Source of the DNA: Deltaproteobacteria bacterium
GTDB lineage: Bacteria > Myxococcota > Myxococcia > SLRQ01
NCBI GenBank assembly: GCA_029210625.1
Contig: JARGFU010000008.1
Coordinates: forward strand, 1 to 64,000
Direction: 5' to 3'
Length of the DNA: 64,000 nucleotides
The notes below the pieces were generated by a model. It was not told where the DNA came from, did no database searches, and worked only from the letters and a program-made list of their open reading frames with translations. The translations under genes were made by a program, and so were the position numbers. Below are positions 1,753 through 19,613 of the stretch, one piece after another (position 1 is the first letter of the stretch; each line of letters begins with the position of its first letter).

Positions 1753-3009
1753 CTACGCGCCCTGGGCCTTGTAGGCCTCGATGAGCACGTCGGCGGTCTG
1801 GGGCCGCATGATCTTCTCGGAGGGGCGCTCGCCGGAGACGAGCAGCTCCCGCACCTTGGTGCCCGAGATGAAGAAGGGCTTCTCCTCGGCGTGGTTCGCC
1901 ATCAGGTCGACCCGGCCGAGGCTCTCGTAGAAGGCCGCGAAGCCGACCTTCACCGGCTTGGTGTGCAGCTCGCCGGGCAGGTCGTCGAAGACCTCCTGGG
2001 CGTCGAAGTCGCCCCAGATGGGGGAGTTGTCGTGGAAGGGCGCGTCGGCGTGCTTCCGGCCGATGACGATGTGGCTGAAGCCATGGTTCTGCCGGTAGAT
2101 GGCGTGCATCAGCGCCTCGGCAGGGCCGCCGTAGAACATCTTGATGTCGAGGCCCACGAGGGCGAAGACGTCGTTCAGATCGTAGCCGGTCTCGGCCCAG
2201 AGGGCGGTGTCCGAGTCGCCCTGGCCGAGGAGGCGGCCCTTGAGGAGAGCCTCGTAGGTCTCCATCCGGGTGGCGGCGTCCACGTCGTCGCCCTTGAGCT
2301 GACCGACGAGCGGGTTGAGGACCACACCGGCGTGGAGCCCCTCGCGGGTGAGGGTCTCGACCCCGTAGACCAGGGCGTACTCGTGAGCCCGGTGCAGCGG
2401 GTTGCGGGTCTGGAAGGCCAGGGCGGCCTCCCACTTGCGGTCGGCGATCATCGCCCGGGTCTGCCGGGGCGAGAGGACGTACTGACCGAAGTCGGGGTTC
2501 TTGGGCTGGGGCAGGGTCTGGATCTTGCCGCCCACCAGCTTGGTCCGGGGGTCGTTCATCACGATGTCGCCGCCGGGGTGATCGTGGCGGTCGGTCCCGT
2601 AGACCTTCTCGAGGTAGCGGTTCTTGTCCCAGTCGAAGAGGCTCTCGACCTCGAGGACGCCGACGACCTCACCGGCGCTGTTCTTGATGACGGCCTTCTT
2701 GCCGACCTCGAGCTTCGCCGCCTCGGCGTCGGTGACCGGCAGGGACATGGGGATGCCCCAGACGTAGTTCTTTCCGCCGCGGGTGATCGTGCGGGTGTCG
2801 AGGACCTGGTTGAACTCGTCCTCGTTCATCGGCCCCTCGAGGGGGGAGAGGGTGCCGTCGGAGAAGCGGTAGACGGCCGAGAGGTCGGCGTCGTTCACCT
2901 CGAAGGAGGACATCCCCTCTGCCTCGGCGAGGAGGGCCTTGCGCTGGGAGAGGGGGAGGATGCGATCGACGGGCTCGTTGAGGCCGCCGTGGACGGGGAC
3001 GAGGGACAT
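1753..3009 (-). CDS. sat: Sulfate adenylyltransferase (ATP sulfurylase)
   Basis: A 418-aa Sat-type enzyme forming adenosine 5'-phosphosulfate and pyrophosphate from ATP and sulfate (assimilation), or running in reverse in sulfur oxidation. The ATP-site motif QTRNPLHRAHEY is intact, as is the C-terminal ISGTKVRELL. The usual GRDHA motif reads GRKHADAP, a variant known in part of the family. The start is the ATG at 3009: it has AAGGAG nine bases upstream, and the 17 extra residues upstream lack similarity. A TAGGGT -10-like element at 3059-3064 gives a leader of about 45 nt. No APS reductase or APS kinase gene is adjacent, so the direction of the reaction in vivo cannot be inferred from context. 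The PAS/ABC1-kinase genes lie upstream on the same strand. Confidence 0.95.
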   Translation of the reverse strand: MSLVPVHGGLNEPVDRILPLSQRKALLAEAEGMSSFEVNDADLSAVYRFSDGTLSPLEGPMNEDEFNQVLDTRTITRGGKNYVWGIPMSLPVTDAEAAKLEVGKKAVIKNSAGEVVGVLEVESLFDWDKNRYLEKVYGTDRHDHPGGDIVMNDPRTKLVGGKIQTLPQPKNPDFGQYVLSPRQTRAMIADRKWEAALAFQTRNPLHRAHEYALVYGVETLTREGLHAGVVLNPLVGQLKGDDVDAATRMETYEALLKGRLLGQGDSDTALWAETGYDLNDVFALVGLDIKMFYGGPAEALMHAIYRQNHGFSHIVIGRKHADAPFHDNSPIWGDFDAQEVFDDLPGELHTKPVKVGFAAFYESLGRVDLMANHAEEKPFFISGTKVRELLVSGERPSEKIMRPQTADVLIEAYKAQGA

Positions 3010-3058
3010 GCTGGCTGCTCCTTCGCAGGGAGGGTCGTCGGGTGTTGCGGAGCCGCGC

Positions 3059-3064
3059 ACCCTA
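3059..3064 (-). promoter_or_regulatory. -10-like element TAGGGT of sat
   Basis: On the minus strand TAGGGT is preceded at 17 bp by TTCCGC, a poor -35. It leaves a leader of about 45 nt carrying an AAGGAG ribosome site before sat, unlike the leaderless cases elsewhere in the window. Confidence 0.4.
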
Positions 3065-3131
3065 GTCCAAACCGAGCCGCTGCGGAACCAGGAGGCATTT
3101 CGCCCCTCTTTTCAGGGGCTTTCCCGCCGAT

Positions 3132-3713
3132 TCAGAGCTCGGGGTAGTGCTTCTTCACGCACTCCGGGCAGATGCTGTGGCTGATGTCGGCCAGGAGGTG
3201 ATCCCGGATGTAGACGTCCACCTGTTGCCAGTAGCCCTGGTCGTCGCGGACCTTCTTGCAGAAGGAGCAGAGCGGCAGGATGCCCCGCAGGCTCTTGATC
3301 TCCTCGATCGCCTTGGTCAGCTGGCCGATGAGGCGCTCGCGCTCGTCCTCGGCCTTCTTCAGCTCGGAGAGGTCGTCGAAGATGCAGAGCAGGTAGGTCT
3401 CTCCCTCGAAGACGAGCGGCTGGAAGAGGGCGTTGCCGGTGAGCTCCCTGCCGAAGCTGGAGGTCAGGCTGAGCTTGATCGAGGTGGACTGGCCGCTGGC
3501 CATGGCCTGGTCCGCGGCCTGGGTCAGCCCCGAGGCCCTCCACGATTCGAGCTCGTGGTAGTTCTGCGCCAGGATCTGCTCCCGGCTCCCGCCCACGATC
3601 TTCCCGATCGCCTCGTTCGCGAGGATGGCGTTGCCCTCGGCGTCGCAGACGACCTTTCCCAGGGGAGAGCGGTCGAAGATCAGCTGATGGAAGGCGAGCT
3701 GGTCGTAGGCCAT
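3132..3713 (-). CDS. PAS-domain protein with C-terminal CxxC/CPEC motif
   Basis: A 193-aa cytoplasmic signalling protein. Residues about 8-118 form a PAS domain (FDRSPLGKVVCDAEGNAILANEA... start; FDDLSELKKAEDERE end), followed by a helix likely to form a coiled coil (about 115-145). It ends in SLRGILPLCSFCKKVR ... ICPECVKKHYPEL. This four-cysteine tail is found after PAS or receiver domains in many deltaproteobacterial proteins and could bind a metal or act as a redox switch. No kinase, cyclase or DNA-binding domain is present, so output is probably by protein contact. It starts 7 nt after the ABC1-kinase stop and is in that operon. Confidence 0.8.
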   Translation of the reverse strand: MAYDQLAFHQLIFDRSPLGKVVCDAEGNAILANEAIGKIVGGSREQILAQNYHELESWRASGLTQAADQAMASGQSTSIKLSLTSSFGRELTGNALFQPLVFEGETYLLCIFDDLSELKKAEDERERLIGQLTKAIEEIKSLRGILPLCSFCKKVRDDQGYWQQVDVYIRDHLLADISHSICPECVKKHYPEL

Positions 3714-5147: not shown

Positions 5148-8100
5148 CTAGAAGTAGACCCAGCCCAGGCTGAAGTTCGTGACCCACTGCCCGTTGTTGG
5201 GGAGCCCCCGCTCCACCCCCACGAGGGTGGGGTTGGCCCCGACGTCCACCGGCTTGGCGAAGTGCAGGCGGAAGACCAGGGGCCCGAAGCCGAAGTTCAC
5301 GCCCAGCACCACGTCCAGGACCCGCTTGTTCCAAAGCTCGGACAGCTCGTTGCCCACTGCCCCGAAGTCCACCCCCAGGACCCCCTCGATGTCGGTGAAG
5401 AGGATCAGCCGCACGATGGCGTTGAGGGGGAACTGCAGCTCCAGGGTGCCGTAGGCGAAGTGCTGCCCCCGCAGGAAGTCGGCGTCGCCGAAGGGGACCC
5501 CGCGCAGGGTGTCGAAGCTCGAGAGGTAGAACTGCCGGGCGAAGCGCGAGCCGAAGGCGGTGCCCGCGCCGACCCGCAGGAAGACGTTGGCCCGCCCCCA
5601 GAGCGGCAGGTACTTCTCGGCGTCCACCCGCACGTTGCCGAAGAGCTCCCCGTCCAGGGGCTGCACGGTGGTGGTGGACTCCAGCATCAGCGAGGAGCCG
5701 GCCAGGGGGCCGGTGGCCCGGTGGTAGCGGATGGTGTCGTAGCCGTAGCGCAGGGTGACCTCGCCCTGCAGGCGGGCGCCCTCGTTCGCGTCCCGCCAGA
5801 GCTGCAGGAGGTTGCGGTGGGTGCCGTTGAGCTCGCCGTCGCCCAGGATCAGCTCGGCGTCCTCGAGGAGGAAGTAGGTGGTGCCGCCGATCGAGAGATC
5901 GCCCTGCACGTGGTGGTAGGTGTCGAAGGGGTAGCGCAGGCTGCCCAGCGCGCCGTAGTAGCGCTCGGCGGTCGTCACCTGCACCCCGAGGTCGGCGATG
6001 CCCGGGGTCTGATCGGTGCGGAAGAGCAGGGACTGGAAGACGCCGGTGCCCCAGGTCATCCGCCCGGCCTGGTTCACGTAGACGGCGAAGCCGTCGGTGA
6101 GATCGAAGCTGCCGAAGATGAAGAGGTTGAGCAGCACCGCGTGGTTGCGCAGCTTGTCCGAGCCGCTGGCCATCAGCTGACCGAAGACGCCGCTGCCCCC
6201 CGCGCCGAAGAGCCCGAAGAGGTTGCCGAGCTCCCAGTTCCGGGGGCGCAGGGGATCGTAGGGCGTGGCCCCCACCAGCGGCTGGGAGGCCAGGGTGCGG
6301 GGACGCCCCGCCTCGGCCGGCGCGGTGGGCTCGGCCGGCGTCAGGGCCGAGGCCGGCAGCTTCACCGGGATCCGCTGCCCGGCGTTGTGCCAGAGCACCC
6401 AGAGGTCCCCCTTCCCGGCGGGCGAGGGATCGAAGACCCCGGTGTCCATCAGGGTGAGGGCGCGGACGCCGGCCGCGGAGACCTCGTAGATGTCCGCCCG
6501 GGCCTGGTCGAAGGCCACGTAGACGATGCGTCCATCCGGCAGGACCTTGATGTCCTGCGCGTCGCGCGCCTCGAAGGTGAGGCGGGTCGGCTCTCCCCCC
6601 TCCGGGGCCACGCTGAAGAGGTTGTAGTGGCCGGTCTCGGTGGCGTCCGAGGTGTAGACGATGCCCGCCAGGCCCCAGCTGACCTCGCGCTCGGCCCAGA
6701 GGTCGTCGGTGAGCGCGCGGGCAGGCTTTCCGTCGTGCACGTCGACGACGTAGACGTCCTTCTGCCCGGCCTCGTTCAGGGCGATGAAGACGATGCGCCG
6801 CCCGTCGGGGGAGAAGGCCGGCGAGCCCACGGCGAGGATCCCCTCGGGCAGCGGCAGGGAGACCCGGCTCCCCAGCTCGAGCTTGGTGGTCCAGCTCCCC
6901 GGCTCGTGGAGGGAGGCGCCGCGCCCCTCGGTGGGCTGCCCCGGCCGGGCGGTGCGCTCCTTGGCCAGGTGGACCAGCGGGCGCCAGTAGAGGTGGTCGC
7001 GGCCCCGCACCTGCGCCACGTAGGTGATCCCATCGGCCCGGACGTCGAAGTTGCGGCCGGAGACCGGGTGGAGCGACTCGGCGCCGGGGACGCCGTCGGC
7101 CACCACGGTCCGCGAGAGGTTGGGCGCCCGCGGATCGAGGAGGGTCAGGCGAGAGCGGCCGGTGTCTCCGTCCATGCTGCGCAGCAGGACGAGCTGACCG
7201 TCGGGGGAGGCGGCCAGGGCGTCCACGTTCTCCAGGCCGATCTTCAGGGGCTCGAGCTCGGCCTCGCCGATCGCCGAGTCGAGGTAGCTGGGGAAGGCCC
7301 GCCGCTTGAGCCAGTCGGAGAAGGCGGCCGCGACCTTGCGCGGCTCGTCCCCGGTGAGCTCCTCGATGAGGCGGGCGAAGCCGTCGACCTGGCGCTGCCC
7401 CTCGTAGGCGCCGACCAGGCGGGGGGAGCGGTCGAGGATCTTCTGGATCGTGCCCGCACCGTAGTGGTCCTCGAGGAAGGCGCAGCGCACCTGCCCGACC
7501 TTGTAGGTCCAGAGCACCGAGTAGGGCCGGTCCTCGAAGAAGCCGAGCATGGCGTAGCCCCGCTGGAAGCTGGGGTTGACCAGGATGTCCCGCACCAGCA
7601 TCTCGGCCTCGGGATCGACGCCGCGCTGAGCGTAGTACTCGGCGAGGCCCTCGATGAACCAGAGGGGCATGTTCTCGAGGGGATCCCCCCAGAGGTCGGC
7701 CTGCTTGGCCACCGCCCGCACCTTCTGGATGGTGAACTGGTGGGCCATCTCGTGGGTCCCCACCTCGTCGAAGAGCCGGTGATCCCCGAAGTAGGGCAGG
7801 GTCATCTTGAGGTCGCGGGGCGAGGTGACGCCGAGCACCCCCTCCTGCAGAGGGAAGAGGTTGGTCTGGAGGAACTCCTGGTAGGAGCTGTAGAGGATGA
7901 AGGGGATCTGCTCCCGGGGGATGAAGTCGAAGCGCTCGGAGAGGTAGCGGTAGGAGCCCTCGACGAGCACCGAGGCCCGCTCGGCGACCTCGCGCTCTCG
8001 CTCGTAGAAGTAGAGCCGCACCCTCCCGGCGCCCCGCAGCTGGCTCGCCGCGTCCTCCGGCTTCGCCCCCCGGTCGGCGGGCTTGCCCAGGCCGGCCACC

Positions 8101-8648
8101 GCGCGGGCGCCGGCGTCGGGATGCTTCTGCGGCACCGGGCGGGCCGGCGGCGCGACGGCTCCATCGGTCCCCTCCGGCTTCGGCGCATCGACGACCACCG
8201 TCGGCGGTGCCGGCTCCGCGACGGGCGCGGGTGCGGGGGCGGGCGCGTTCGGCTCACCCTCGGCACCGTCCGCAGGCGTCACCGCCGCCTTCAGGGTCCT
8301 GCCAGAACCAGCGCCGGAGACCTCGGCCTCGACCGGTGCGTCCCCGTTTCCGTCACCGTCACCCTTTCCGTCTTCTCCCTCTTCACCTCCGGAACCCTCG
8401 GAGACGGGAACGGCGTCCGGAGCCTCTTCGACCTTCTCCTCGTCACCTTCCTCCTGCTTCTCCTCTCCCTCCGGCTTCGTCAGGTCCACATCGATGATCA
8501 GATCCGAGTGCTGCCAGTCGAAGTCGAAGTGGCGCACCAGACTCTTGTCGGGGCGGCGGGGGTAGACGAAGACCTGCCCCGCGGCTTCCACCGGCCAGAG
8601 CAGAACCAGCGAGAGGGGGAGGAAGAGAAGGATCGAGGCGCGCTTCAT
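5148..8648 (-). CDS. Outer-membrane protein with metallopeptidase-like, propeller and beta-barrel regions
   Basis: An 1166-aa exported protein with a cleavable-type signal peptide (MKRASILLFLPLSLVLLWPVEAAGQ). An acidic, Pro/Ala-rich linker spans about residues 55-200. Residues about 200-480 resemble gluzincin peptidases of the MA family: THEMAHQF (HExxH near 298) and, about 35 residues on, FIEGLAEYYA, which would supply the third zinc ligand. Residues about 480-820 carry TolB/PD40-like propeller repeats (GSPAFSPDGRRIVFIAL, SPDGQLVLLRS). The last ~340 residues look like an Omp85/BamA-type barrel (SSFDTLRGVPFGDADFLRGQHF) and end in aromatic Phe after WVY, as barrel proteins do. The start codon shares one base with the SDR stop (TGATG), so the two are probably translationally coupled. 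Substrate unknown; a surface protease-receptor role is inference. Confidence 0.85.
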   Translation of the reverse strand: MKRASILLFLPLSLVLLWPVEAAGQVFVYPRRPDKSLVRHFDFDWQHSDLIIDVDLTKPEGEEKQEEGDEEKVEEAPDAVPVSEGSGGEEGEDGKGDGDGNGDAPVEAEVSGAGSGRTLKAAVTPADGAEGEPNAPAPAPAPVAEPAPPTVVVDAPKPEGTDGAVAPPARPVPQKHPDAGARAVAGLGKPADRGAKPEDAASQLRGAGRVRLYFYEREREVAERASVLVEGSYRYLSERFDFIPREQIPFILYSSYQEFLQTNLFPLQEGVLGVTSPRDLKMTLPYFGDHRLFDEVGTHEMAHQFTIQKVRAVAKQADLWGDPLENMPLWFIEGLAEYYAQRGVDPEAEMLVRDILVNPSFQRGYAMLGFFEDRPYSVLWTYKVGQVRCAFLEDHYGAGTIQKILDRSPRLVGAYEGQRQVDGFARLIEELTGDEPRKVAAAFSDWLKRRAFPSYLDSAIGEAELEPLKIGLENVDALAASPDGQLVLLRSMDGDTGRSRLTLLDPRAPNLSRTVVADGVPGAESLHPVSGRNFDVRADGITYVAQVRGRDHLYWRPLVHLAKERTARPGQPTEGRGASLHEPGSWTTKLELGSRVSLPLPEGILAVGSPAFSPDGRRIVFIALNEAGQKDVYVVDVHDGKPARALTDDLWAEREVSWGLAGIVYTSDATETGHYNLFSVAPEGGEPTRLTFEARDAQDIKVLPDGRIVYVAFDQARADIYEVSAAGVRALTLMDTGVFDPSPAGKGDLWVLWHNAGQRIPVKLPASALTPAEPTAPAEAGRPRTLASQPLVGATPYDPLRPRNWELGNLFGLFGAGGSGVFGQLMASGSDKLRNHAVLLNLFIFGSFDLTDGFAVYVNQAGRMTWGTGVFQSLLFRTDQTPGIADLGVQVTTAERYYGALGSLRYPFDTYHHVQGDLSIGGTTYFLLEDAELILGDGELNGTHRNLLQLWRDANEGARLQGEVTLRYGYDTIRYHRATGPLAGSSLMLESTTTVQPLDGELFGNVRVDAEKYLPLWGRANVFLRVGAGTAFGSRFARQFYLSSFDTLRGVPFGDADFLRGQHFAYGTLELQFPLNAIVRLILFTDIEGVLGVDFGAVGNELSELWNKRVLDVVLGVNFGFGPLVFRLHFAKPVDVGANPTLVGVERGLPNNGQWVTNFSLGWVYF

Positions 8649-9358
8649 CAGGGCTTTCTCACATCGAGCTCGGCGCCCCGGATGTCCGCGGCAGCGTCGG
8701 AGAGGAGGAAGAGCACGGCGTCCGCAACCTGCTCGGGAGCGAGGATCTTCCCCTCGGGCTCCTCGCCGAAGATCGAGGCACGCAGGGTGGTGCGGGTCCC
8801 GCCGGGGCAGACGGTGTTCACCCGGATCCCCAGGGGCGTCCCCTCGGCGGCGAGCGCCCGGGCCAGCCCGTGGAGGCCGCTCTTGGCGGCGCAGTAGGCG
8901 GCCCACATGGCCTTGCCGTGCTTGCCGGCACCGCTGGAGACGTTCACGATCGCGCCGCCGCCGGCGGCGGGCATCGTCCGGAAGGCCTGCCGGCTGCAGA
9001 GGAAGGCCCCCGTGAGGTTCACGCCGAGGCAGTGCTGCCAGTCGGCGAGGCTGAAGTCGGCCGTGGGGCCCACCGGCGCGTTGCCGGCGTTGTTGACGAG
9101 GTAGCGCAAGGGGCCGAAGGCCTCGACCGCACCGGCGAAGAGGGCCTCGACCTGGGCCTCGTCGGTGACGTCCGCGCGAAAGGCCCGGGCCGCTCCCCCG
9201 GCCTCTCGGATCGAGGCCGCCACCGCCTCGACCTCCGAGGGGGTCCGGCTGGCGAGGGCCACGCTCGCCCCCGAGGCGGCCAGCCGCCGGGCGATGGCCG
9301 CGCCGATGCCCCGTCCGGCGCCGGTGACGATGGCCGCTCCCTCCAGGTCGATCTGCAT
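8648..9358 (-). CDS. Short-chain dehydrogenase/reductase (SDR)
   Basis: A 236-aa classical SDR, expected to be a cytoplasmic NAD(P)-dependent oxidoreductase. The cofactor motif TGAGRGIGAA is at about residues 12-21, NNAG is in the middle, and the active site follows the Ser-Tyr-Lys pattern (NVSSGAG ... AAYCAAKSG). CPGGTRTT supports the family. FabG-like 3-ketoacyl reductase is possible but the protein is generic and the substrate cannot be read. It starts at ATG 9358 with TAACCT (9365-9370) only 6 nt upstream and no ribosome site. Its stop overlaps the start of the outer-membrane protein by one base, an odd partnership for a soluble enzyme. Confidence 0.92.
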   Translation of the reverse strand: MQIDLEGAAIVTGAGRGIGAAIARRLAASGASVALASRTPSEVEAVAASIREAGGAARAFRADVTDEAQVEALFAGAVEAFGPLRYLVNNAGNAPVGPTADFSLADWQHCLGVNLTGAFLCSRQAFRTMPAAGGGAIVNVSSGAGKHGKAMWAAYCAAKSGLHGLARALAAEGTPLGIRVNTVCPGGTRTTLRASIFGEEPEGKILAPEQVADAVLFLLSDAAADIRGAELDVRKP

Positions 9359-9364
9359 CGGGAC

Positions 9365-9370
9365 AGGTTA
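9365..9370 (-). promoter_or_regulatory. -10-like element TAACCT, 6 nt before ATG
   Basis: TAACCT on the minus strand ends 6 nt before the SDR start, fitting the recurrent leaderless pattern in the window. No clear -35. Confidence 0.4.
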
Positions 9371-9551
9371 GTACGGAAGCCCGAGCCGGCCCACCAGCCA
9401 CCGGGGTGCCAGACCAGGCGCCCGGGTCCCAAGCCTGAACGTGTTTGCAGCGGCTTGACTCCTCTGCCCCCGCCCCCCAAATAGCAAGGGTCCGAGGCAG
9501 GGGGAGGGAGATCTCCACCTGCGCCCTCGTGCCCACTTTCTGGAGGCTTTC

Positions 9552-12500
9552 GTGAAGAGGCTCGCGCTCGCTCTGGCCCTGATCCCCGTGCTCCTCGTCG
9601 GCTGCCCGGCCGACGTCACCACCTGGAGCAACCCCTACGATCCCGAGTCCATCGCCCCGGCCCCCGGCCTCATCCAGGGCGTGGTGGCCGAGACGAGCTG
9701 GGACAGCAGCGGCAACCTCGTCGCGCAGCCCATCGCGGGCGCCACCGTCACCGTGAGCAAGAGCCCGGAGGCCGTGACCCCGGCCACCACCGACGCGGCC
9801 GGCGCCTTCTCCTTCGACGGCCTGCCCCCGGGGGAGTACCAGCTGCTGGTCACGGCGGTCGGCTACCAGCCGGCCTCCCTGCCGGTCATCGATCTCCCGG
9901 TGGCCACCCAGCGCGACCTGGGCTCCATCTACCTGGTGCCGCTGTCCACCACCGACGACGCGAGCACCTTGAGCGGCGTCACCACCCTCGAGGGCGCCCC
10001 GAGCCACGAGGGCATCCTGATCCGCATGGTGGGGCGCCCCTTCCAGACCCTCACCGCGCCCGACGGCAGCTGGTCGATGCGCCTCTCCGAGGGCACCTAC
10101 GACCTGGAGATGAGCGCGGCGGACTACCAGCCGGTGCTGCTCTCCGGCACCGTGGTGCCCCGGGCAGCCGATCTCCAGCTGGATCCGGTCGTGCTCCTGG
10201 CCAACCCGGGGAGCATCGAGGGCATCGTCGAGCGGCAGACCTGCGAGGCCGACCCGCGCAACGAGGTGATCCTCCCGGCCGAGGGCGCCCTGGCCGCCGC
10301 CCTCCCCTCGGGGGGCACCACGGTCGCCGACCCGACCGGCGCCTTCGTCCTCGGCGGCCTCTCCGCTGGCAGCTACGCCGTCCGCGTCTCCCTCGACGGC
10401 CACGAGAGCGTCACCGTCAACGGCCTCACCGTGCGCGGCGGCCGGAGCACCACGCTCCCCGAGCCGCTCCTCCTGCCCGCCGCGAAGGGCGGGGTCACCG
10501 GCCGGGTGACCCTCACCGGAGAGACCAACCACGCCGGCGCCCTCGTGCAGATCGAGGGGACCCCCTTCGTGGCCTTCACCGGCTCGGACGGCAGCTTCTT
10601 CCTCGAGGGGGTCTGCGCCGGCACCAACTACCAGCTCATGGCCCGCCGGGACGGCTTCATCGAGCAGTCCGTGGGCGGGGTGACCGTGACCGCCGGCGGG
10701 GTCGTCGACGTGGGCGAGCTGCAGCTGGCCCGCCAGCAGGGCGGCCTGGTCCTCCACTCGGGCAACGCCTTCGCCAACCTGCGTACCGTCGCCTACCAGC
10801 TCGAGGCCCCCACCGGCACCACCGAGATGCGCATCGGCGAGGACGAGACCCTCTTCGACGATCCCGCCCGCGCCGACGAGGGCTGGGTGCCCTACGCCAC
10901 CAACGGCACCTACGATCTCGCCGGCCCGGAGGGCGAGGTGAAGGTCTTCGCCCAGGTGCGCGGCAGCAGCGGCGTCGGCGCCAAGGTCTCCGATGTCGTG
11001 ATCCTCGACCTCACCGCCCCCACCGATCCCCGGGTGGTGGTCGAGGACGACAGCGGCTGGTCCCGCGACCCCGACGGCGTCCTGCTCCTCACCCTGACCG
11101 CCTCGGACGCCCCGCCCCTCGGGAGCACCATCGTGACCAGCGGGCTGGCCGCCTACAAGGTGCTGACCACCGACGTTCAGGCCTGCGCCCCGGCCGCCTG
11201 CAGCGAGCCGGCCCAGAGCGCCTGGGACCTGGCCACCCTGCAGCCCTACAACCGCAGCCTCGACTTCCCCATGCTCCGCCCCTCGGTGGACGAGGAGAAG
11301 GAGGTCTGGGTCCGCTTCCAGGACCGGGCCGGCAACTGGTCCGCCTCGGCCAACACGAAGGTCGTGCTCGACCGCGAGGCCCCGGACGGGACGGTGGTGG
11401 AGGTCGAGGGCGGCTCCACCTGGTCGCGTACCGCGATCGTCAGCGTCGGCCTCACGGCCGCCGACGAGAACCAGGCCGCGGGCCTCACCATGCGGCTGGC
11501 GAGTGACAGCGGCTTCAGCGGCGCGGTCTGGCAGCCCTACCAGAGCGTGATCACCTGGTTCCTCTCCCCCGGCGACGGAGCCAAGCAGGTCTTCGCCCAG
11601 TTCCGCGATCCCGCGGGCAACGTCTCCGCGCCGGTGAGCGACGGCATCACCCTGGACACGGTCGGCCCGACCGGCGCCCGCCTCGCCATCGACCAGGCCC
11701 CCTACGCGGGCAGCCGGAACCTCACCCTCACCACCGGCGCGCAGGGCGCCAGCGAGATGGTGGTCTCCCTCGCACCCGACTTCACCGACCTCGCGGGCAA
11801 CCCGGTGGCCTGGGAGAGCTACGACGTCTCGACCACCCTCCAGCTCCCCGACGCCGACGGCCCCTACGTCCTCTACGGCAAGTACCGCGACGCCGCCGGC
11901 AACGAGACGGTCCGCCTCGACGCCGCGGTCACCCTCGACCGGGACGCCCCGGTCATCGCCTCGGCCTCCATCGTGGAGGGCGCCGCGGTCTCCACCCCCA
12001 ACGTCACCCTCCTGGTGCAGGCCGTGGCCGGCGCCGCCTACGCCCACGAGATGAAGGTCGACGTCGAGGACGTCGCCTCCGGCGGGCTGGTGCAGGGCAT
12101 CTGGGGCCCCTTCAACCCCACTCAGCCGGTGACCCTCGCCGCCCCCCGGGGTGTCAAGCGGGTGCACGTCACCCTCCGGGACGCCGCTGGCAACACCAGC
12201 GCGCCGCGGAGCGTGGACGTCGAGTGGGACGACACCGCCCCGCAGATCACCCTGGTCACCCTCGCCGGGGGCGCGCCCTGGGTGACCGAGACCGCCCTCA
12301 CCCTCGACGTGGTCGCCACCGGCGCCACCGAGCTGCAGGTCTCCAACCGCGCCGACTTCGCCGGGGCGCTCTGGCAGCCCTACGCCACGCCCCTGGCCTG
12401 GACCCTCGATCCCGGCGACGGGGCGAAGACCGTCCACGTCCGGGTGCGGGACTCGGCCGGCAACCTCGACACCTCCAGCGCCAGCGTCTCCCTCGATCGC

Positions 12501-15500
12501 ACCGTGCCCCAGCCCCTGAGCCTCACCCTGGACGGCGGGGCGACCTACAGCACCGATGGGAGCGTGGACGTGGTCGTCGGCGCCGCCGACGCCACCAGCG
12601 GGATCGCCAGCGTGCTGCTCTCCAGCGAGCCGGGCTTCTCGGCGCCCACCTCCGTGACCTGGAGCGGCACCGGCAGCGAGACCGTCACCGGCTGGGCCCT
12701 CACGCCGGGCGAGGGCTCGCGCACCGTCTACCTGCGAGTCATCGACGTGGCGGGCAACATCGCGAACTCCGTGGCCGGCATCGAGGTCGACACCGGCGCC
12801 CCGGCGGGCACCGCCTTCATCGACGCCGACGCCGACGGCCAGGAGGACGCGTGGGCGCTCGGCACCGGCGTCGTCGTGCGCATCTTCGCCCCGGCGGACA
12901 CCCGGGACATGGCCCTGGGCAACGGCAGCCTCGACTGCAACACCGCGACCTGGACGGCCTTCGCGGCCGCACCGAACTGGACCCTCGACGGCGGCAGCGA
13001 CGGCGCGAAGACGGTCGTGGTCTGCCTGCGGGACGCCGCGGGCAACATCGCCTCGACCTCCGACGGCATCTCTCTCGATCGTCAGGATCCGACGGGCGGC
13101 AGCCTCACCATCGACAAGGGCGCGAGCCACGCCACCAACCCCCGCGTGCTCTTGAGCCTCACCGCCCCCGCCGACGTCGCCTCCCTCGCCCTGGCCGACG
13201 GGGCCAGCCTGGCCTGCGCCACGGCCAGCTACGAGGCCTTCTCCTCCACCCGGGCCTGGACCCTCCCCAGCGGGGACGGGACGAAGCAGGTCACGGCCTG
13301 CCTGCGCGACGCCGCCGGGCGGACCGCCTCGGTCACGGACTCGATCGTGCTGGACACCACCTTGCCGGCCGGCACGGTGGTCCTCGACGCGGACGGCGAC
13401 GCCGCCGCGGACACCCACGCCACCTCGGCGAGCGTGGACGTCCTGCTCACCCACCCCTCGGACACCACCGGCGTCGCCGTGGCCAACGAGCTCCTCGACT
13501 GCGCCACGGCCAGCTACGCCCCGCCGGGCGGGGCCACCACCACGACCGTCGCCGGGCACCTCCTCGGCGCCGGTGACGGCGCCAAGACCGTGGTGGCCTG
13601 CTTCCAGGACGCCGCCGGCAACCGCGCCACGGCCTCCGCCTCCATCATCCTCGACACCGGCGCGCCCGCCGGCTCGGTGGTCATCGCCGGCGGCGCGACC
13701 ACGACCCGCAGCGATCTCGTGGACCTGGCCCTCGACTCCCCCGCCGACACCGTCGCGATGAAGATCTTCAACGGCGTCGTCGACTGCGCCAGCGCGACGA
13801 TCGACGGCCCCCGCATCACCAGCGTGGCGAGCTGGGATCTCGACCCCGCCGACGACACCGCCAACGACGGCAGCGTGACCGTCACCGCCTGCTTCCTGGA
13901 CGGCGCCGGGCTCCGCTCCGGCGCCACCGACGTCATCCTCCTGGACCGGGTGGCGCCCACCGGCACCGTGAGCATCGACGGAGGGGCCGCCGACACGCGC
14001 AGCCACACCGTCACGATCTCCCTCACCGCCAGCGAGACCGTGAGCGTGGCGCTGGTCAACGGCACCAGCCTGAACTGCACGACCGCCTCCTACGGCGGCT
14101 GGGTCGCCACCCGCAGCTGGACCCTCGCCGCGGGCGAGGGCAGCCGGAGCGTGGCCGTCTGCTTCCGGGACTCCGCCGGCAACACCGGCAGCGCGACGGA
14201 CGCCATCAACGTCGACACCCTGCCGCCCACCGGCACCCTCGCCATCAACGGCGTGGACACCCACACCGACACCAACACCGTGACCCTGACGGTCAGCGCC
14301 TCCGCCGACGCGAGCAGCATCGCGATCGCGAACGAGAGCCTGGACTGCTCGACGGCCTCCTACGGGGGCATCAGCAGCCCCCTGGCCTGGACCCTCGGGC
14401 TGGGTGAGGGGACCCGGCGGGTCGTCGCCTGCCTGAAGGACGGGGCCGGCAACGTCGCCTCTCTCCAGGACGAGATCATCCTGGACACCCTGGAGCCCGA
14501 GCCCAAGCTGGTGATCGGCGACGGCAGCGGCTTCTCCACCACGAGCCCGGTTAGCGTGACCGTCTCCTTCCCCAACGACGTGAACGGCTACGCCGTGGCG
14601 CAGACGAGCCTGAACTGCAACAGCGCCACCTACACGCCGGTGCTGGTGGGCACCTCGAGCGCCACCACGAACCAGGCCCTCGGCGGAGGCGACGGCGCGA
14701 AGACCGTCGTGGCCTGCGTGCGGGACCAGGCCGGGAACCTCGGGACCCTCAGCGGCTCCGTCACCCTCGACACCACCAACCCCACCGGCAGCGTGGCGAT
14801 CGACGGCGGCGCGGCCTGGGCCACCCGGCGCAGCGTCGTCCTCTCCTTCACCGCGCCCTCGGACGTGGTCTCCATGGCGGTCGCCGACGGCACGACCCTC
14901 TCCTGCGCCTCGGCCACCTACGAGCCCTACGCCTCGGTCCTCCCCTGGACCCTCCCGGCCGGCGACGGCGACAAGGACGTGGTGGTCTGCTTCAAGGACC
15001 GCGCCGGGCGCACCGCCAGCGACACCGACCGGATCGGCCTGGACACCTCCCGGCCGGCCGGCGCCTTCGTCATCGACTCCAGCTCCCCGGTGGACGGGGT
15101 CGAGGACGACTACGCCACCAGCACCTCGGTGAGCCTGGCCTTCACCGCCCCGGGCGGCGAGGATCTCTCCACCCTGCAGGTGGCCGTGGCGAACGGCTCC
15201 ACCCTCGACTGCTCCAGCGCCGCCTACTCGGCCTACCCGCTCACCCACCGCCTCTCCCGGACCCTCACCGGCCCCGACGGGCTGGTCACCGTCAGCGTCT
15301 GCTTCCGGGACGCCGCCGGCAACACCGCGAGCGCGGCCGACTCGATCGTGCTCGACCGCAGCCCCCCGGGCGGCAGCCTCTCCATCGCCCGGGATCTCGC
15401 GGTCACCGGCTCGGATCTGGTCGACCTCATCGTCTCGGCCACCGGCGACACCACCCAGATGAAGGTCTTCAACGGCACGGTCTCCTGCGCCAGCCAGACC

Positions 15501-18500
15501 ATCGACCAGCCCTACGCCACCAGCGTGGCCTCCTGGGACCTGGATCCGGCCGACAACACCGGCAACGACGGGACGAAGACCGTCACCGTCTGCCTGCGCG
15601 ACGCCGCCGGCCTGCGGGCGACCGCCACCGACACGATCGTCCTCGACCGGATCGCCCCCACCGTGAGCAGCGTGGTCATCGACGGCGGGGCCGCCATGAC
15701 CCGCAACACCCTGGTGGCCGTGACCGTCTCCGCCAGCGATGGCAGCGGCTCGGGGATCACCGGCCTGCGCCTCTCCGAGGCCAGCGACTTCTCCGGCGCG
15801 CCCTGGCTGGTGCACAGCGGCGCCACCACCCTCACCGAGAACCTGGTCCTCTCCTCGGCGGGCGGCACCAAGACCGTCTACGCCCAGGTCCGCGACGCCG
15901 CGGGCAACGTGAGCGTGCTCGACGGCAGCGACTCGGACACCCTCGGGCTGGACAACATCGCCCCGACCATCACCGGCATCTCCTTCCCCAACGCGCCGCT
16001 GGACGCGGTGATCAGCACCTCGGTCCAGGTGGTGGTCGACGCCTACGACGATCAGCCCGACGCCTCGGGCTACCGCTTCAAGATCCTCGAGGGCCCGATC
16101 GACTGCAACACGCTCGACTACAGCGCCTGGGACGGCCGGGTCGACGCCATCTGCGGCCTCTCCGGCTGCACGAGCGCCACCTACTCCCGCTCCCTCTCCG
16201 CCGGAGAGGGCGCCAAGCCGATCGAGGTCTGCCTCGCGGATCCGGCGGGCAACATCACGGCCTTCCCCTTCCGCCGCTCGGTGATCCTCGATCTGACCGC
16301 GCCGGGGGTGCCGACCGGCCTGGTCGCGGTCTCGGGCAGCGAGCAGCTCTCGCTCTCCTGGTTCGCGGCCCAGGACGCGCAGAGCGGCATCGCCTACTAC
16401 GAGATCCTGGTTCGAGAGGCCGTCATGTCTCCGCCTCCCGCCCAGTATTTCCAGACCTCGCAGCCCGAGAGTGTGGTGACCGGGCTTCGAAACGGCACGC
16501 CCTACTCGATCTCGGTCCGCTCGGTGGACCGCGCCGGCCGGACCAGCACCTGGTCCACGAGCATCGAGGCGACGCCGGGCTATCGCCAGCACCTCCTGAG
16601 CGCCCCGCTGGCGGCCGGTGATCGGATCGACGCGACCCTCACCAACGCCCAGGGCCGGCTCTGGTGGCCCGCGAACGAGGTCGATCCCTCCACCGGGCTC
16701 GAGCACATCGTGGTGGCCTCCTGCGACCTCGTCCTCGACGACTGCAGCGACGCCGGCGACTGGCAGCACTTCCGGCTCGACACGGGCTACCGGAACCGGG
16801 CCCGGCGGATCGAGCTCGTCGGCACCCCCGACGAGCTGATCATCCCCACCGTGGAGAACCCGGCCGACGACGGCTCGCCCCGGGTGGGCTTCTGGCACTG
16901 CTCCCGCCAGAGCGACTGCACGCTGGCCTCGAGCTGGATCTTCGTGGAGCTCATCCCCTTCGGGGGCACCGGCTACTCCTCGGGCACCTTCCGGAACACC
17001 TCCATCCGGGCCGATGTCGCGCCCGACCGGACGATCATCGCCTCCGTGGGGCCCGGGATCTACCGCTCCCTGGCCATCTCCACCTGCCACCACGGCAGCG
17101 ACTGCAGTCAGGCCGCCAGCTGGTCGACCGTGGCGGTGCCCAGCCCGATCAACACCCAGGCGGTCAACCAGGGGGATCAGATCGCCGTCGTGGCCACCGA
17201 CACCCAGATCGTCGGGGCGTTCAGCGCCAACGCCGGCATCTGCCACGTGGGCTGTCAGCTCTCCACCGGCTGTGACCTCCTCGCCGACTGGACGGGGCCG
17301 AGCTGCGACGACTTCGGGAAGGAGGAGCTCTTCCTGGCCAAGTCGAACCGCTACCTCCACGAGCTCGGGGAGTACATCGACAACCCCTCCGTCCGCCGCT
17401 GCCCGCTGAACGCGGACTGCGCCGTCGCCGCCAACTGGTCCACCCACGAGGCGTGGATCTCCGGTGACCTCAGCTCCGTCGAGCTCGAGGTGCTGGCCGG
17501 CAAGGTCAACGTCATCGGCGTCGACGATGGCAGCGGCGAGATCCGCCTCTCCATCTGCGAGAGCGGCGACACCACCGGGTGCGTGGTGAACGCCGACTGG
17601 TCGGTCGCCGCCCTCTCCCTCGCCTCGGGAGGCCCGCGCGTCGGCCTGACCGCGCGGGGTGCCGACGTGATCGCCGGGTGGCGTGACGAGGATCGGCGCA
17701 TGCGTCTCATCCTGCCCACCGCCCTCTCGCCCGAGGGCTTCCGGGTCGCCGCCGGCGCGGGGAGCTCCACCGGGGAGCTGAACCTCCGCTGGGACGCCTC
17801 CCCCCCGGACGTGGCCGGACACTACATCCTGCTGGACGACCCCTGGGCCCTGAGCCCGGGCTGGGACAGCGAGATCCTGATCGGCGATCCCTCCGTGACC
17901 TCCAACATCGCCGTCCCCCTGCTCTCCGGCACGACCTATCGGGCCTCCGTCAAGTCGTTCCTCGCGGACGGGCAGCGATCCTCGGCCCCCCGCTCCAGCC
18001 TCGTCCGGAGCGCCCGCCGGGTCATCCTGACGTCCTCGGGGAGCAACTCCCGGACGGCCGACGCGCATGACGGCCGCCTCGCCGTGGCCCTGGCGCAGGG
18101 CACGCTCGACCAGCCCTACGTCTGGTGGTGCGATCGCCACCAGAGCGACTGCGAGGTCTCGGGGGACTGGACCCTGACCTCACCCCTCGTGGCCACCGCC
18201 CCCTACCAGACCGTGGCCGTCGGGGTGGACGAGGGCGCCCTCTACGTCGCCGCCCGCTCCGACGCCGGGGACCTGCACCTCTCCCGGTGCGACTTCTCCA
18301 CGGGCTGCGATGCGGACGCCTACTGGAGCCCGGCCGTCACCCTGGGAACGGGGCTGGACTCCTACCCGATGGTCTCCCTCGAGGCCCGCGGCAGCCGCGT
18401 CTGGGTCACCCACCGCGACGGCGCCGGCGCCATGGTCGTGAGTCAGTGCCTGAAGTCCACGGGCTGCGCGGCCGCGGGCAACTGGACCACCCTCACGGTG

Positions 18501-19613
18501 GACGCCACGCCCAACACCCGCTTCGGGGCGACGCTGCGAGCCGTGGAGACCGGCTCCACCTGGGAGGTCGTCATCCTCCGCTCGATGGACGACTCGGTGC
18601 GCTTCTTCCACTGCGACGGCACCTCGACCGGCTGCGACGCTCCGGCGGACTTCGATCAGAGCACCCTGGTGACGACCGGCGTGTTCCCCGACCTGCCCCA
18701 CCCGACCCTCGCCACGAGCCCGGAGGATCCCGCCGAGGGCGCCTCCTTCGCCACGGCGTGGGACGACGTCCTCTACCTGGGCGTCTGCGCGACCCCCCTC
18801 TCCCGCTGCGGCGATCCGCAGAGCTGGGTCTTGCGGGACGTGAGCGCCTTCAGCACCTACAACGACACCAACGTCGAGGTGATCCACGGCTACGGGGGCG
18901 AGCGCTACCTCGCGTACCAGGAGGGTCGCTTCGGCGGGAAGATCAGCCTCTGGAGCTGCGCCGACGAGTGCTACATGCCCGACCAGTGGCGCCGGGCCGG
19001 CGCCATCGTCTCGGGGACCGCCGCCACGACCAACCGCACCACCGGGCGCTGGGTGGCCTTCGATGAGCGAGACGGATCGGTCTTCTTCGTCAACAACAAC
19101 TTCTCCTCGACCCGCGCCCACGTGGGGGCCCGGACCGACATCGAGCTCCTCCCCCGCCAGCCCTACCTCGAGGGCGGCCACCCGCTGCCGGGCCGGCTCC
19201 AGGCCGAGGCCTATGACCACGGCGATCTGGGCATCGCCTACTTCGACCGCAGCCGGGGCAACTCTGGCGGCGAGGTGCGCGTGGACGACGTGGACGTGCG
19301 GGCCTGCGCCGCGCCGGGCTGCTACCAGGTGACCGACACCCAGGCCCGGGAGTGGCTGGAGTACCGGGTCTCGGTCGGCACCGCCGGCACCTTCACCCCC
19401 GCGCTCTCGGTCGCCTCCCCGGTCGGCGGCAACCTGCGCCTGGAGGTGGACGGCGCCGACGCGGCGGGCGTGCTGGTGGCGCCGAACACCGGCGACTTCG
19501 ACACCTTCCAGACGGTGACCGGACCGGACATCCCCCTCTCCGCCGGCGATCACGTCGTCCGCCTCTACTTCGAGGACGGCGACATCGACGTCGACTGGAT
19601 CGACCTGCTCTAG
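9552..19613 (+). CDS. 3353-aa modular surface lipoprotein (CarboxypepD-reg, Ig-like, FN3, propeller-like, CBM6-like)
   Basis: An enormous lipoprotein: signal sequence with lipobox LLVGC (C18). Four carboxypeptidase-regulatory-like domains occupy about residues 39-393. About 18 Ig-like repeats follow (about 400-2245), each ending in a motif like RDAAGN; from the seventh on nearly all carry a cysteine pair (such as LDCSTASY ... VVACLKDGAGN). An FN3 domain (about 2249-2343) precedes a cluster of six C...C...W motifs (about 2350-2728), then another FN3-like domain, a second cluster of six (about 2825-3190), and a C-terminal CBM6-like carbohydrate-binding module (about 3203-3353, ending DIDVDWIDLL). 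The C...C...W units are spaced about 55-70 residues and look like propeller blades. The start is GTG with TGGAGG six bases upstream. No enzyme domain is recognisable; a long adhesin or substrate-binding surface fibre is the likely role. Confidence 0.92.
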   Translation: MKRLALALALIPVLLVGCPADVTTWSNPYDPESIAPAPGLIQGVVAETSWDSSGNLVAQPIAGATVTVSKSPEAVTPATTDAAGAFSFDGLPPGEYQLLVTAVGYQPASLPVIDLPVATQRDLGSIYLVPLSTTDDASTLSGVTTLEGAPSHEGILIRMVGRPFQTLTAPDGSWSMRLSEGTYDLEMSAADYQPVLLSGTVVPRAADLQLDPVVLLANPGSIEGIVERQTCEADPRNEVILPAEGALAAALPSGGTTVADPTGAFVLGGLSAGSYAVRVSLDGHESVTVNGLTVRGGRSTTLPEPLLLPAAKGGVTGRVTLTGETNHAGALVQIEGTPFVAFTGSDGSFFLEGVCAGTNYQLMARRDGFIEQSVGGVTVTAGGVVDVGELQLARQQGGLVLHSGNAFANLRTVAYQLEAPTGTTEMRIGEDETLFDDPARADEGWVPYATNGTYDLAGPEGEVKVFAQVRGSSGVGAKVSDVVILDLTAPTDPRVVVEDDSGWSRDPDGVLLLTLTASDAPPLGSTIVTSGLAAYKVLTTDVQACAPAACSEPAQSAWDLATLQPYNRSLDFPMLRPSVDEEKEVWVRFQDRAGNWSASANTKVVLDREAPDGTVVEVEGGSTWSRTAIVSVGLTAADENQAAGLTMRLASDSGFSGAVWQPYQSVITWFLSPGDGAKQVFAQFRDPAGNVSAPVSDGITLDTVGPTGARLAIDQAPYAGSRNLTLTTGAQGASEMVVSLAPDFTDLAGNPVAWESYDVSTTLQLPDADGPYVLYGKYRDAAGNETVRLDAAVTLDRDAPVIASASIVEGAAVSTPNVTLLVQAVAGAAYAHEMKVDVEDVASGGLVQGIWGPFNPTQPVTLAAPRGVKRVHVTLRDAAGNTSAPRSVDVEWDDTAPQITLVTLAGGAPWVTETALTLDVVATGATELQVSNRADFAGALWQPYATPLAWTLDPGDGAKTVHVRVRDSAGNLDTSSASVSLDRTVPQPLSLTLDGGATYSTDGSVDVVVGAADATSGIASVLLSSEPGFSAPTSVTWSGTGSETVTGWALTPGEGSRTVYLRVIDVAGNIANSVAGIEVDTGAPAGTAFIDADADGQEDAWALGTGVVVRIFAPADTRDMALGNGSLDCNTATWTAFAAAPNWTLDGGSDGAKTVVVCLRDAAGNIASTSDGISLDRQDPTGGSLTIDKGASHATNPRVLLSLTAPADVASLALADGASLACATASYEAFSSTRAWTLPSGDGTKQVTACLRDAAGRTASVTDSIVLDTTLPAGTVVLDADGDAAADTHATSASVDVLLTHPSDTTGVAVANELLDCATASYAPPGGATTTTVAGHLLGAGDGAKTVVACFQDAAGNRATASASIILDTGAPAGSVVIAGGATTTRSDLVDLALDSPADTVAMKIFNGVVDCASATIDGPRITSVASWDLDPADDTANDGSVTVTACFLDGAGLRSGATDVILLDRVAPTGTVSIDGGAADTRSHTVTISLTASETVSVALVNGTSLNCTTASYGGWVATRSWTLAAGEGSRSVAVCFRDSAGNTGSATDAINVDTLPPTGTLAINGVDTHTDTNTVTLTVSASADASSIAIANESLDCSTASYGGISSPLAWTLGLGEGTRRVVACLKDGAGNVASLQDEIILDTLEPEPKLVIGDGSGFSTTSPVSVTVSFPNDVNGYAVAQTSLNCNSATYTPVLVGTSSATTNQALGGGDGAKTVVACVRDQAGNLGTLSGSVTLDTTNPTGSVAIDGGAAWATRRSVVLSFTAPSDVVSMAVADGTTLSCASATYEPYASVLPWTLPAGDGDKDVVVCFKDRAGRTASDTDRIGLDTSRPAGAFVIDSSSPVDGVEDDYATSTSVSLAFTAPGGEDLSTLQVAVANGSTLDCSSAAYSAYPLTHRLSRTLTGPDGLVTVSVCFRDAAGNTASAADSIVLDRSPPGGSLSIARDLAVTGSDLVDLIVSATGDTTQMKVFNGTVSCASQTIDQPYATSVASWDLDPADNTGNDGTKTVTVCLRDAAGLRATATDTIVLDRIAPTVSSVVIDGGAAMTRNTLVAVTVSASDGSGSGITGLRLSEASDFSGAPWLVHSGATTLTENLVLSSAGGTKTVYAQVRDAAGNVSVLDGSDSDTLGLDNIAPTITGISFPNAPLDAVISTSVQVVVDAYDDQPDASGYRFKILEGPIDCNTLDYSAWDGRVDAICGLSGCTSATYSRSLSAGEGAKPIEVCLADPAGNITAFPFRRSVILDLTAPGVPTGLVAVSGSEQLSLSWFAAQDAQSGIAYYEILVREAVMSPPPAQYFQTSQPESVVTGLRNGTPYSISVRSVDRAGRTSTWSTSIEATPGYRQHLLSAPLAAGDRIDATLTNAQGRLWWPANEVDPSTGLEHIVVASCDLVLDDCSDAGDWQHFRLDTGYRNRARRIELVGTPDELIIPTVENPADDGSPRVGFWHCSRQSDCTLASSWIFVELIPFGGTGYSSGTFRNTSIRADVAPDRTIIASVGPGIYRSLAISTCHHGSDCSQAASWSTVAVPSPINTQAVNQGDQIAVVATDTQIVGAFSANAGICHVGCQLSTGCDLLADWTGPSCDDFGKEELFLAKSNRYLHELGEYIDNPSVRRCPLNADCAVAANWSTHEAWISGDLSSVELEVLAGKVNVIGVDDGSGEIRLSICESGDTTGCVVNADWSVAALSLASGGPRVGLTARGADVIAGWRDEDRRMRLILPTALSPEGFRVAAGAGSSTGELNLRWDASPPDVAGHYILLDDPWALSPGWDSEILIGDPSVTSNIAVPLLSGTTYRASVKSFLADGQRSSAPRSSLVRSARRVILTSSGSNSRTADAHDGRLAVALAQGTLDQPYVWWCDRHQSDCEVSGDWTLTSPLVATAPYQTVAVGVDEGALYVAARSDAGDLHLSRCDFSTGCDADAYWSPAVTLGTGLDSYPMVSLEARGSRVWVTHRDGAGAMVVSQCLKSTGCAAAGNWTTLTVDATPNTRFGATLRAVETGSTWEVVILRSMDDSVRFFHCDGTSTGCDAPADFDQSTLVTTGVFPDLPHPTLATSPEDPAEGASFATAWDDVLYLGVCATPLSRCGDPQSWVLRDVSAFSTYNDTNVEVIHGYGGERYLAYQEGRFGGKISLWSCADECYMPDQWRRAGAIVSGTAATTNRTTGRWVAFDERDGSVFFVNNNFSSTRAHVGARTDIELLPRQPYLEGGHPLPGRLQAEAYDHGDLGIAYFDRSRGNSGGEVRVDDVDVRACAAPGCYQVTDTQAREWLEYRVSVGTAGTFTPALSVASPVGGNLRLEVDGADAAGVLVAPNTGDFDTFQTVTGPDIPLSAGDHVVRLYFEDGDIDVDWIDLL

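Follow-up and report, generated by a model that had tools for sequence, protein, structure and literature searches.

A conserved C..C..W repeat predicted to form paired, probably seven-bladed beta-propellers in a giant bacterial lipoprotein

In the C-terminal third of a 3353-aa bacterial lipoprotein, we found a repeat that is real, conserved and unnamed, and that is a variant of a well-known fold. The gene lies in a 64,000-nucleotide stretch of contig JARGFU010000008.1 from a Deltaproteobacteria bacterium, here called the window. The repeats likely build two seven-bladed beta-propellers with an FN3-like domain between them, placed at the tip of a lipid-anchored stalk and with disulfides in their loops; this tip would bind an external ligand, probably a carbohydrate, in a non-enzymatic manner.

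Results

Twelve cysteine units in two groups of six

An earlier note, made from the DNA sequence alone, had described twelve C...C...W units in two groups of six separated by an FN3-like domain, and pattern counting and shuffling confirmed this arrangement. Exactly 12 units of the form C-x(3-7)-C-x5-[W/F] are present, starting at aa 2391, 2450, 2512, 2568, 2617 and 2669 in group 1 (aa 2391-2683) and at aa 2860, 2913, 2966, 3021, 3079 and 3136 in group 2 (aa 2860-3146). The pattern C.{3,7}C.{5}[WF] matched 12 times in aa 2340-3210 and 0 times upstream in the lipoprotein, whereas matches in 5000 shuffles of that segment averaged 0.20 and did not exceed 4. Together, the units cover positions 16722-18989, inside the interval first claimed (16590-19130). 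Their spacing within groups is 49-62 aa, slightly tighter than the proposed 55-70 aa or so, and the C...C...W form holds except for one of the 12 units (propeller 2 unit 4), which ends in F.

Table 1. Features of the lipoprotein gene in the window
Feature	Position	Residues (aa)	Strand	Basis
Lipoprotein gene, 3353 aa, GTG start	9552..19613		+	Open reading frame; sequence shows a signal peptide and an LVGC lipobox (aa 15-18)
CarboxypepD_reg modules near anchor	9726..10736 (end approximate)		+	Pfam PF13620, E 1.9e-34, 4 stretches
Stalk, ~18 Ig-like (Big_13-type) modules	11019..16286 (ends approximate)		+	Pfam PF19077, E 2.1e-29; signature count
FN3 domain preceding propeller 1	16311..16571	2254-2340	+	Pfam PF00041, E 4e-10
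Propeller 1 (predicted), six Cys units and seventh	16578..17726	~2343-2725	+	AlphaFold2 model; motif positions
Propeller 1 unit 1, CDLVLDDCSDAGDW	16722..16763		+	Motif position
Propeller 1 unit 2, CSRQSDCTLASSW	16899..16937		+	Motif position
Propeller 1 unit 3, CHHGSDCSQAASW	17085..17123		+	Motif position
Propeller 1 unit 4, CQLSTGCDLLADW	17253..17291		+	Motif position
Propeller 1 unit 5, CPLNADCAVAANW	17400..17438		+	Motif position
Propeller 1 unit 6, CESGDTTGCVVNADW	17556..17600		+	Motif position
Propeller 1 seventh unit (three-stranded, cysteine-free)	17637..17711		+	DSSP strands 367-371, 374-380, 388-391 of model; low to moderate confidence
FN3-like domain linking propellers	17727..17981		+	Profile A4 against tenascin FN3
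Propeller 2 (predicted)	17982..19166	~2811-3205	+	AlphaFold2 model, pTM 0.77; Foldseek matches to seven-bladed propellers
Propeller 2 single strand at N-terminal end, proposed as strand 4 of blade 7	18018..18026		+	DSSP strand 14-16 of model; pLDDT below 50
Propeller 2 unit 1, CDRHQSDCEVSGDW	18129..18170		+	Motif position
Propeller 2 unit 2, CDFSTGCDADAYW	18288..18326		+	Motif position
Propeller 2 unit 3, CLKSTGCAAAGNW	18447..18485		+	Motif position
Propeller 2 unit 4, CDGTSTGCDAPADF, F instead of W	18612..18653		+	Motif position
Propeller 2 unit 5, CATPLSRCGDPQSW	18786..18827		+	Motif position
Propeller 2 unit 6, CADECYMPDQW	18957..18989		+	Motif position
Propeller 2 seventh unit (three-stranded, cysteine-free)	19050..19115		+	DSSP strands 358-362, 368-374, 377-379 (low pLDDT); shuffle test of sequence
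C-terminal carbohydrate-binding module (CBM35/CBM6-like)	19287..19601	3246-3351	+	Pfam PF18099, E 1.7e-10; PF03422, E 8.2e-10

Architecture of the host protein

The segment LALALALIPVLLVGC at aa 4-18 comprises a signal peptide and a lipobox Cys, as in bacterial lipoproteins, and the protein would be exposed on the outer surface. Ig-like modules recur with a period of ~90-100 aa over roughly aa 490-2245, by signature count. The domain between the propellers gave no Pfam fn3 match of its own; the label FN3-like is a fair one, because the family profile matches tenascin FN3 across this stretch (E = 0.0021). From the Pfam domains and the Ig-like signature count, the protein therefore reads as a lipid anchor, a long stalk, FN3, propeller 1, the FN3-like domain, propeller 2 and a carbohydrate-binding module (CBM).

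On the opposite strand, the neighboring genes encode a class II ribonucleotide reductase, a TPR protein, an SDR dehydrogenase and a protein with PD40 and a C-terminus that may form an outer-membrane barrel; this set suggests no operon with the lipoprotein gene. An open frame of 4330 codons also runs along the minus strand (window 5148-18140), mostly opposite the lipoprotein gene, and is probably an effect of high GC. A real minus-strand gene appears to lie at ~5148-8582, with the PD40 match and the barrel-like C-terminus.

Predicted fold of the two repeat regions

We modeled the two-propeller region with AlphaFold2 from eight sequences (mean pLDDT 65.8, pTM 0.46). The pLDDT was 70-90 in most propeller blades and below 50 in the linker and ends. 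Modeling of propeller 2 by itself, from 19 sequences, gave a pTM of 0.77, with block pLDDT up to 93 and values below 50 at both ends. The strands of this model form a lone N-terminal strand, then six four-strand units, then a three-strand unit (1 + 6x4 + 3). Each four-strand unit consists of strands 1-2-3, the Cys loop with a short helical turn, and strand 4. Thus, the paired propellers of the earlier note, for which structure prediction had been named as the check, are borne out at the level of predicted fold: the models have repeated four-stranded units in a ring, and the top Foldseek matches are all propellers.

The best Foldseek matches of propeller 2 were seven-bladed PHL/PLL lectins (E 1.7e-8, TM about 0.5-0.6), followed by prolyl oligopeptidase and then rhamnose-glucuronate lyase, GH145 and LGI1; sialidases were also among the matches. 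TM-scores of 0.5-0.6 in such model comparisons are modest. The seven-bladed status of the neighbors other than PLL lectins is general knowledge. Searching a viral fold library returned generic propeller matches only.

The tail of propeller 2 after unit 6 resembles strands 1-3 of the other units, and only 2 of 100 shuffles of this tail gave an equally good match to that half-unit. The test was also significant for three relatives, but not for the tails of propeller 1.

Cysteines and probable disulfides

Both cysteines are kept in 111 of the 114 units from 19 propellers, and every one of the 19 propellers has an even cysteine count (12, 14 or 16). Judging from this conservation, each unit probably contains a disulfide, as the earlier note had supposed. 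Its further idea of a bond that locks blades fared less well. The short spacing suggests that C1 pairs with C2 of the same unit, and because the two cysteines lie 4-9 residues apart on one loop, the bond more likely staples the strand-3/strand-4 loop within a blade than links neighboring blades. In two proteins, the paralog on contig C16 and a protein of genome G107, unit 2 of propeller 2 retains the second cysteine only; both have a cysteine in an N-S-N-C-H motif of blade 1, and the total stays even. In propeller 2 of loci L039 (the C16 paralog) and L040, this co-occurrence of a lone unit 2 cysteine with the NSNCH cysteine of blade 1 suggests a rewired disulfide between neighboring blades.

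The repeat has no match to a named family

The earlier note had not recognized the repeat as a named family, and a profile match to one would have spoken against its claim; none was found in Pfam, NCBIfam or PDB sequences. With a cutoff of E<=10, the two propellers gave a single Pfam hit, which was at chance level, and neither matched PDB sequences as a single sequence. Nearly all PDB matches of the paired-module profile were FN3 structures aligned to the domain between the propellers, and single-propeller profiles gave nothing meaningful against PDB sequences. Scans of 19 family members with NCBIfam and Pfam found no family common to more than one member. The weak database matches to the propellers are due to chance or to the FN3 part. 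In the open-access literature, we found no description of a C..C..W propeller repeat.

Two known families were considered and set aside. For the BNR/Asp-box sialidases, there was no BNR/sialidase Pfam match at E<=10, and the motif is C..C..W, with no Asp-box S-x-D-x-G-x-T-W. For the PHL/PLL lectins, judged by sequence homology to the PLL W-motifs, there was no PDB sequence match with either a single sequence or a profile.

Relatives and evolution of the paired module

The window genome encodes two paralogs with the whole propeller-FN3-propeller module: a 3808-aa frame on contig C40, which ends at the contig edge, and a 4476-aa frame on contig C16 (L039, G000:C16), a giant lipoprotein with its own lipobox. 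The latter and the window protein have a common start, 'lipobox ... NPxDPE'. Among 195 genomes of the phylum, the blade profile had matches in 15 and the full-module profile in 21, and the paired module also occurs in several other families of the phylum. A collinear alignment of 848 aa links the window protein to one of another family (G166; E 5e-35), and the proteins of G166 and G167 also have the six plus six arrangement. Neither viral contigs nor plasmids contained relatives. A first scan of the genome contigs with the window protein as query gave no match, and a profile built from a two-row alignment recovered only its two source proteins. An alignment of eight rows contained no sufficiently conserved stretch.

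Genomes of one family (f2, probably Myxococcaceae) encode short lipoproteins with a single propeller, usually of six Cys units, several of them with a Gly-rich linker. Four short lipoproteins (L019, L057, L058 and L062) combine the Gly-rich linker with a single six-unit propeller, the terminal unit of which has its own extra cysteines. In three proteins (L035 of G165, L041 of G163 and L045 of G166), unit 2 of propeller 2 is followed by an insertion of ~150-250 aa, in which repeats center on 'GxYLIVTxGxxxGxEGxYxIY' and 'DVLxLxxxDGT'.

In a tree of the propellers, which has long branches, all single propellers fall into one clade (100/100), the propeller 1 copies group together (79/88), and the propeller 2 copies group except for one. 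Because the propeller 1 and propeller 2 copies group largely apart, the pairing seems to predate the divergence of these lineages, a claim that we make with moderate confidence.

Discussion

Judging from the models, each propeller probably has seven blades, not six. In six blades of each propeller, the C-x(3-7)-C-x5-W loop would sit between strands 3 and 4, with the Trp beginning strand 4; the Asp-box of sialidase-type propellers occupies a comparable position. The seventh blade may be closed by the N-terminal strand acting as its fourth strand. Closed in this way, it would have no continuous strand-3/strand-4 loop and hence no motif, which would leave six motifs per seven blades.

The earlier note had instead proposed two six-bladed propellers with one Cys unit per blade, in which case the terminal segments would be linkers. 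The six motifs per group fit this proposal, the terminal unit is poorly modeled, and the six-bladed fungal lectins AOL/AFL/FleA are also among the Foldseek matches of propeller 2. These lectins, however, score below seven-bladed structures, which top the ranking for the better of our models, and in the two-propeller model, unit 6 of each propeller is followed by a further, motif-free unit of three strands, so that neither would have exactly six blades. Moreover, six four-strand units and a lone N-terminal strand leave spare strands unless a seventh blade forms, and the terminal unit of single-propeller relatives has cysteines of its own. We therefore regard six blades as unlikely. Seven blades agree with the layout and neighbors of the propeller 2 model, yet the pLDDT of the closing blade is largely below 50.

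A related question is what the propellers do. Across the 19 propellers, the only invariant columns are C and W, so no catalytic residue is conserved, and the protein is most likely a stalked, non-enzymatic surface protein that binds an external ligand. The Foldseek matches to GH145 BT3686, rhamnose-glucuronate lyase and sialidases, together with the attached CBM, could point instead to active or degenerate polysaccharide-cleaving enzymes; given those invariant columns and the lack of any Pfam or PDB sequence match to such an enzyme, this seems quite improbable. As for the ligand, a carbohydrate is probable because of the lectin-like fold neighbors and the terminal CBM, although similarity of predicted fold to lectins does not prove sugar binding. 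The ligands could also be proteins, as in adhesion between cells or assembly of the envelope, a serious possibility that we rate as somewhat less probable. The LGI1 EPTP and CyRPA propellers bind proteins, and LGI1 is itself a Foldseek match. Furthermore, the C40 paralog and other relatives have no CBM and stop immediately after propeller 2, which means that sugar binding is not constant across the architecture. Against protein binding stand the lectins as closest fold neighbors and the CBM of the window protein.

Beyond the preferred reading of seven-bladed binding domains, a broader scenario, for which we see about even support, is that these proteins represent a propeller lineage not named before, with a disulfide loop instead of the Asp-box in every covalently continuous blade. 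An early duplication would have given rise to the fixed propeller-FN3-propeller tip, and the lineage would have diversified within the phylum as stalked surface receptors. If true, our reading adds a propeller repeat family missed by current libraries, provides a simple signature (six C..C..W units for seven blades) for annotating giant surface proteins, and offers candidate recognition or adhesion receptors in these bacteria.

Several known propellers resemble those described here in part. The two-propeller model matches GH145 BT3686 over a single propeller (rmsd 4.8-5.2 over about 379 columns), but with about 10% identity, and no polar residue is invariant in the lipoprotein propeller family. 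Plasmodium CyRPA, in its solved structure, has six blades, all with disulfides except the one that both termini build together (PMC5349852); the predicted lipoprotein propellers would likewise have one disulfide inside each blade except that built from both termini. CyRPA differs in being a six-bladed, sialidase-like single propeller, and no sequence match between the two was found. In Asp-box (BNR/sialidase) propellers, the motif likewise connects strand 3 to strand 4, with its final W at the start of strand 4, whereas the lipoprotein motif has cysteines in place of the Asp-box and lacks a BNR/sialidase Pfam match. The PHL/PLL lectins of Photorhabdus are not stalked lipoproteins and have no sequence match to the lipoprotein propellers, and the part of their description consulted here (PMC6943638) reports no per-blade Cys pair. 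PLL lectins are seven-bladed beta-propellers (PMC6943638), and these top Foldseek matches share with the lipoprotein a Trp-containing repeat ('W-motifs') and, probably, the seven-bladed fold predicted for it.
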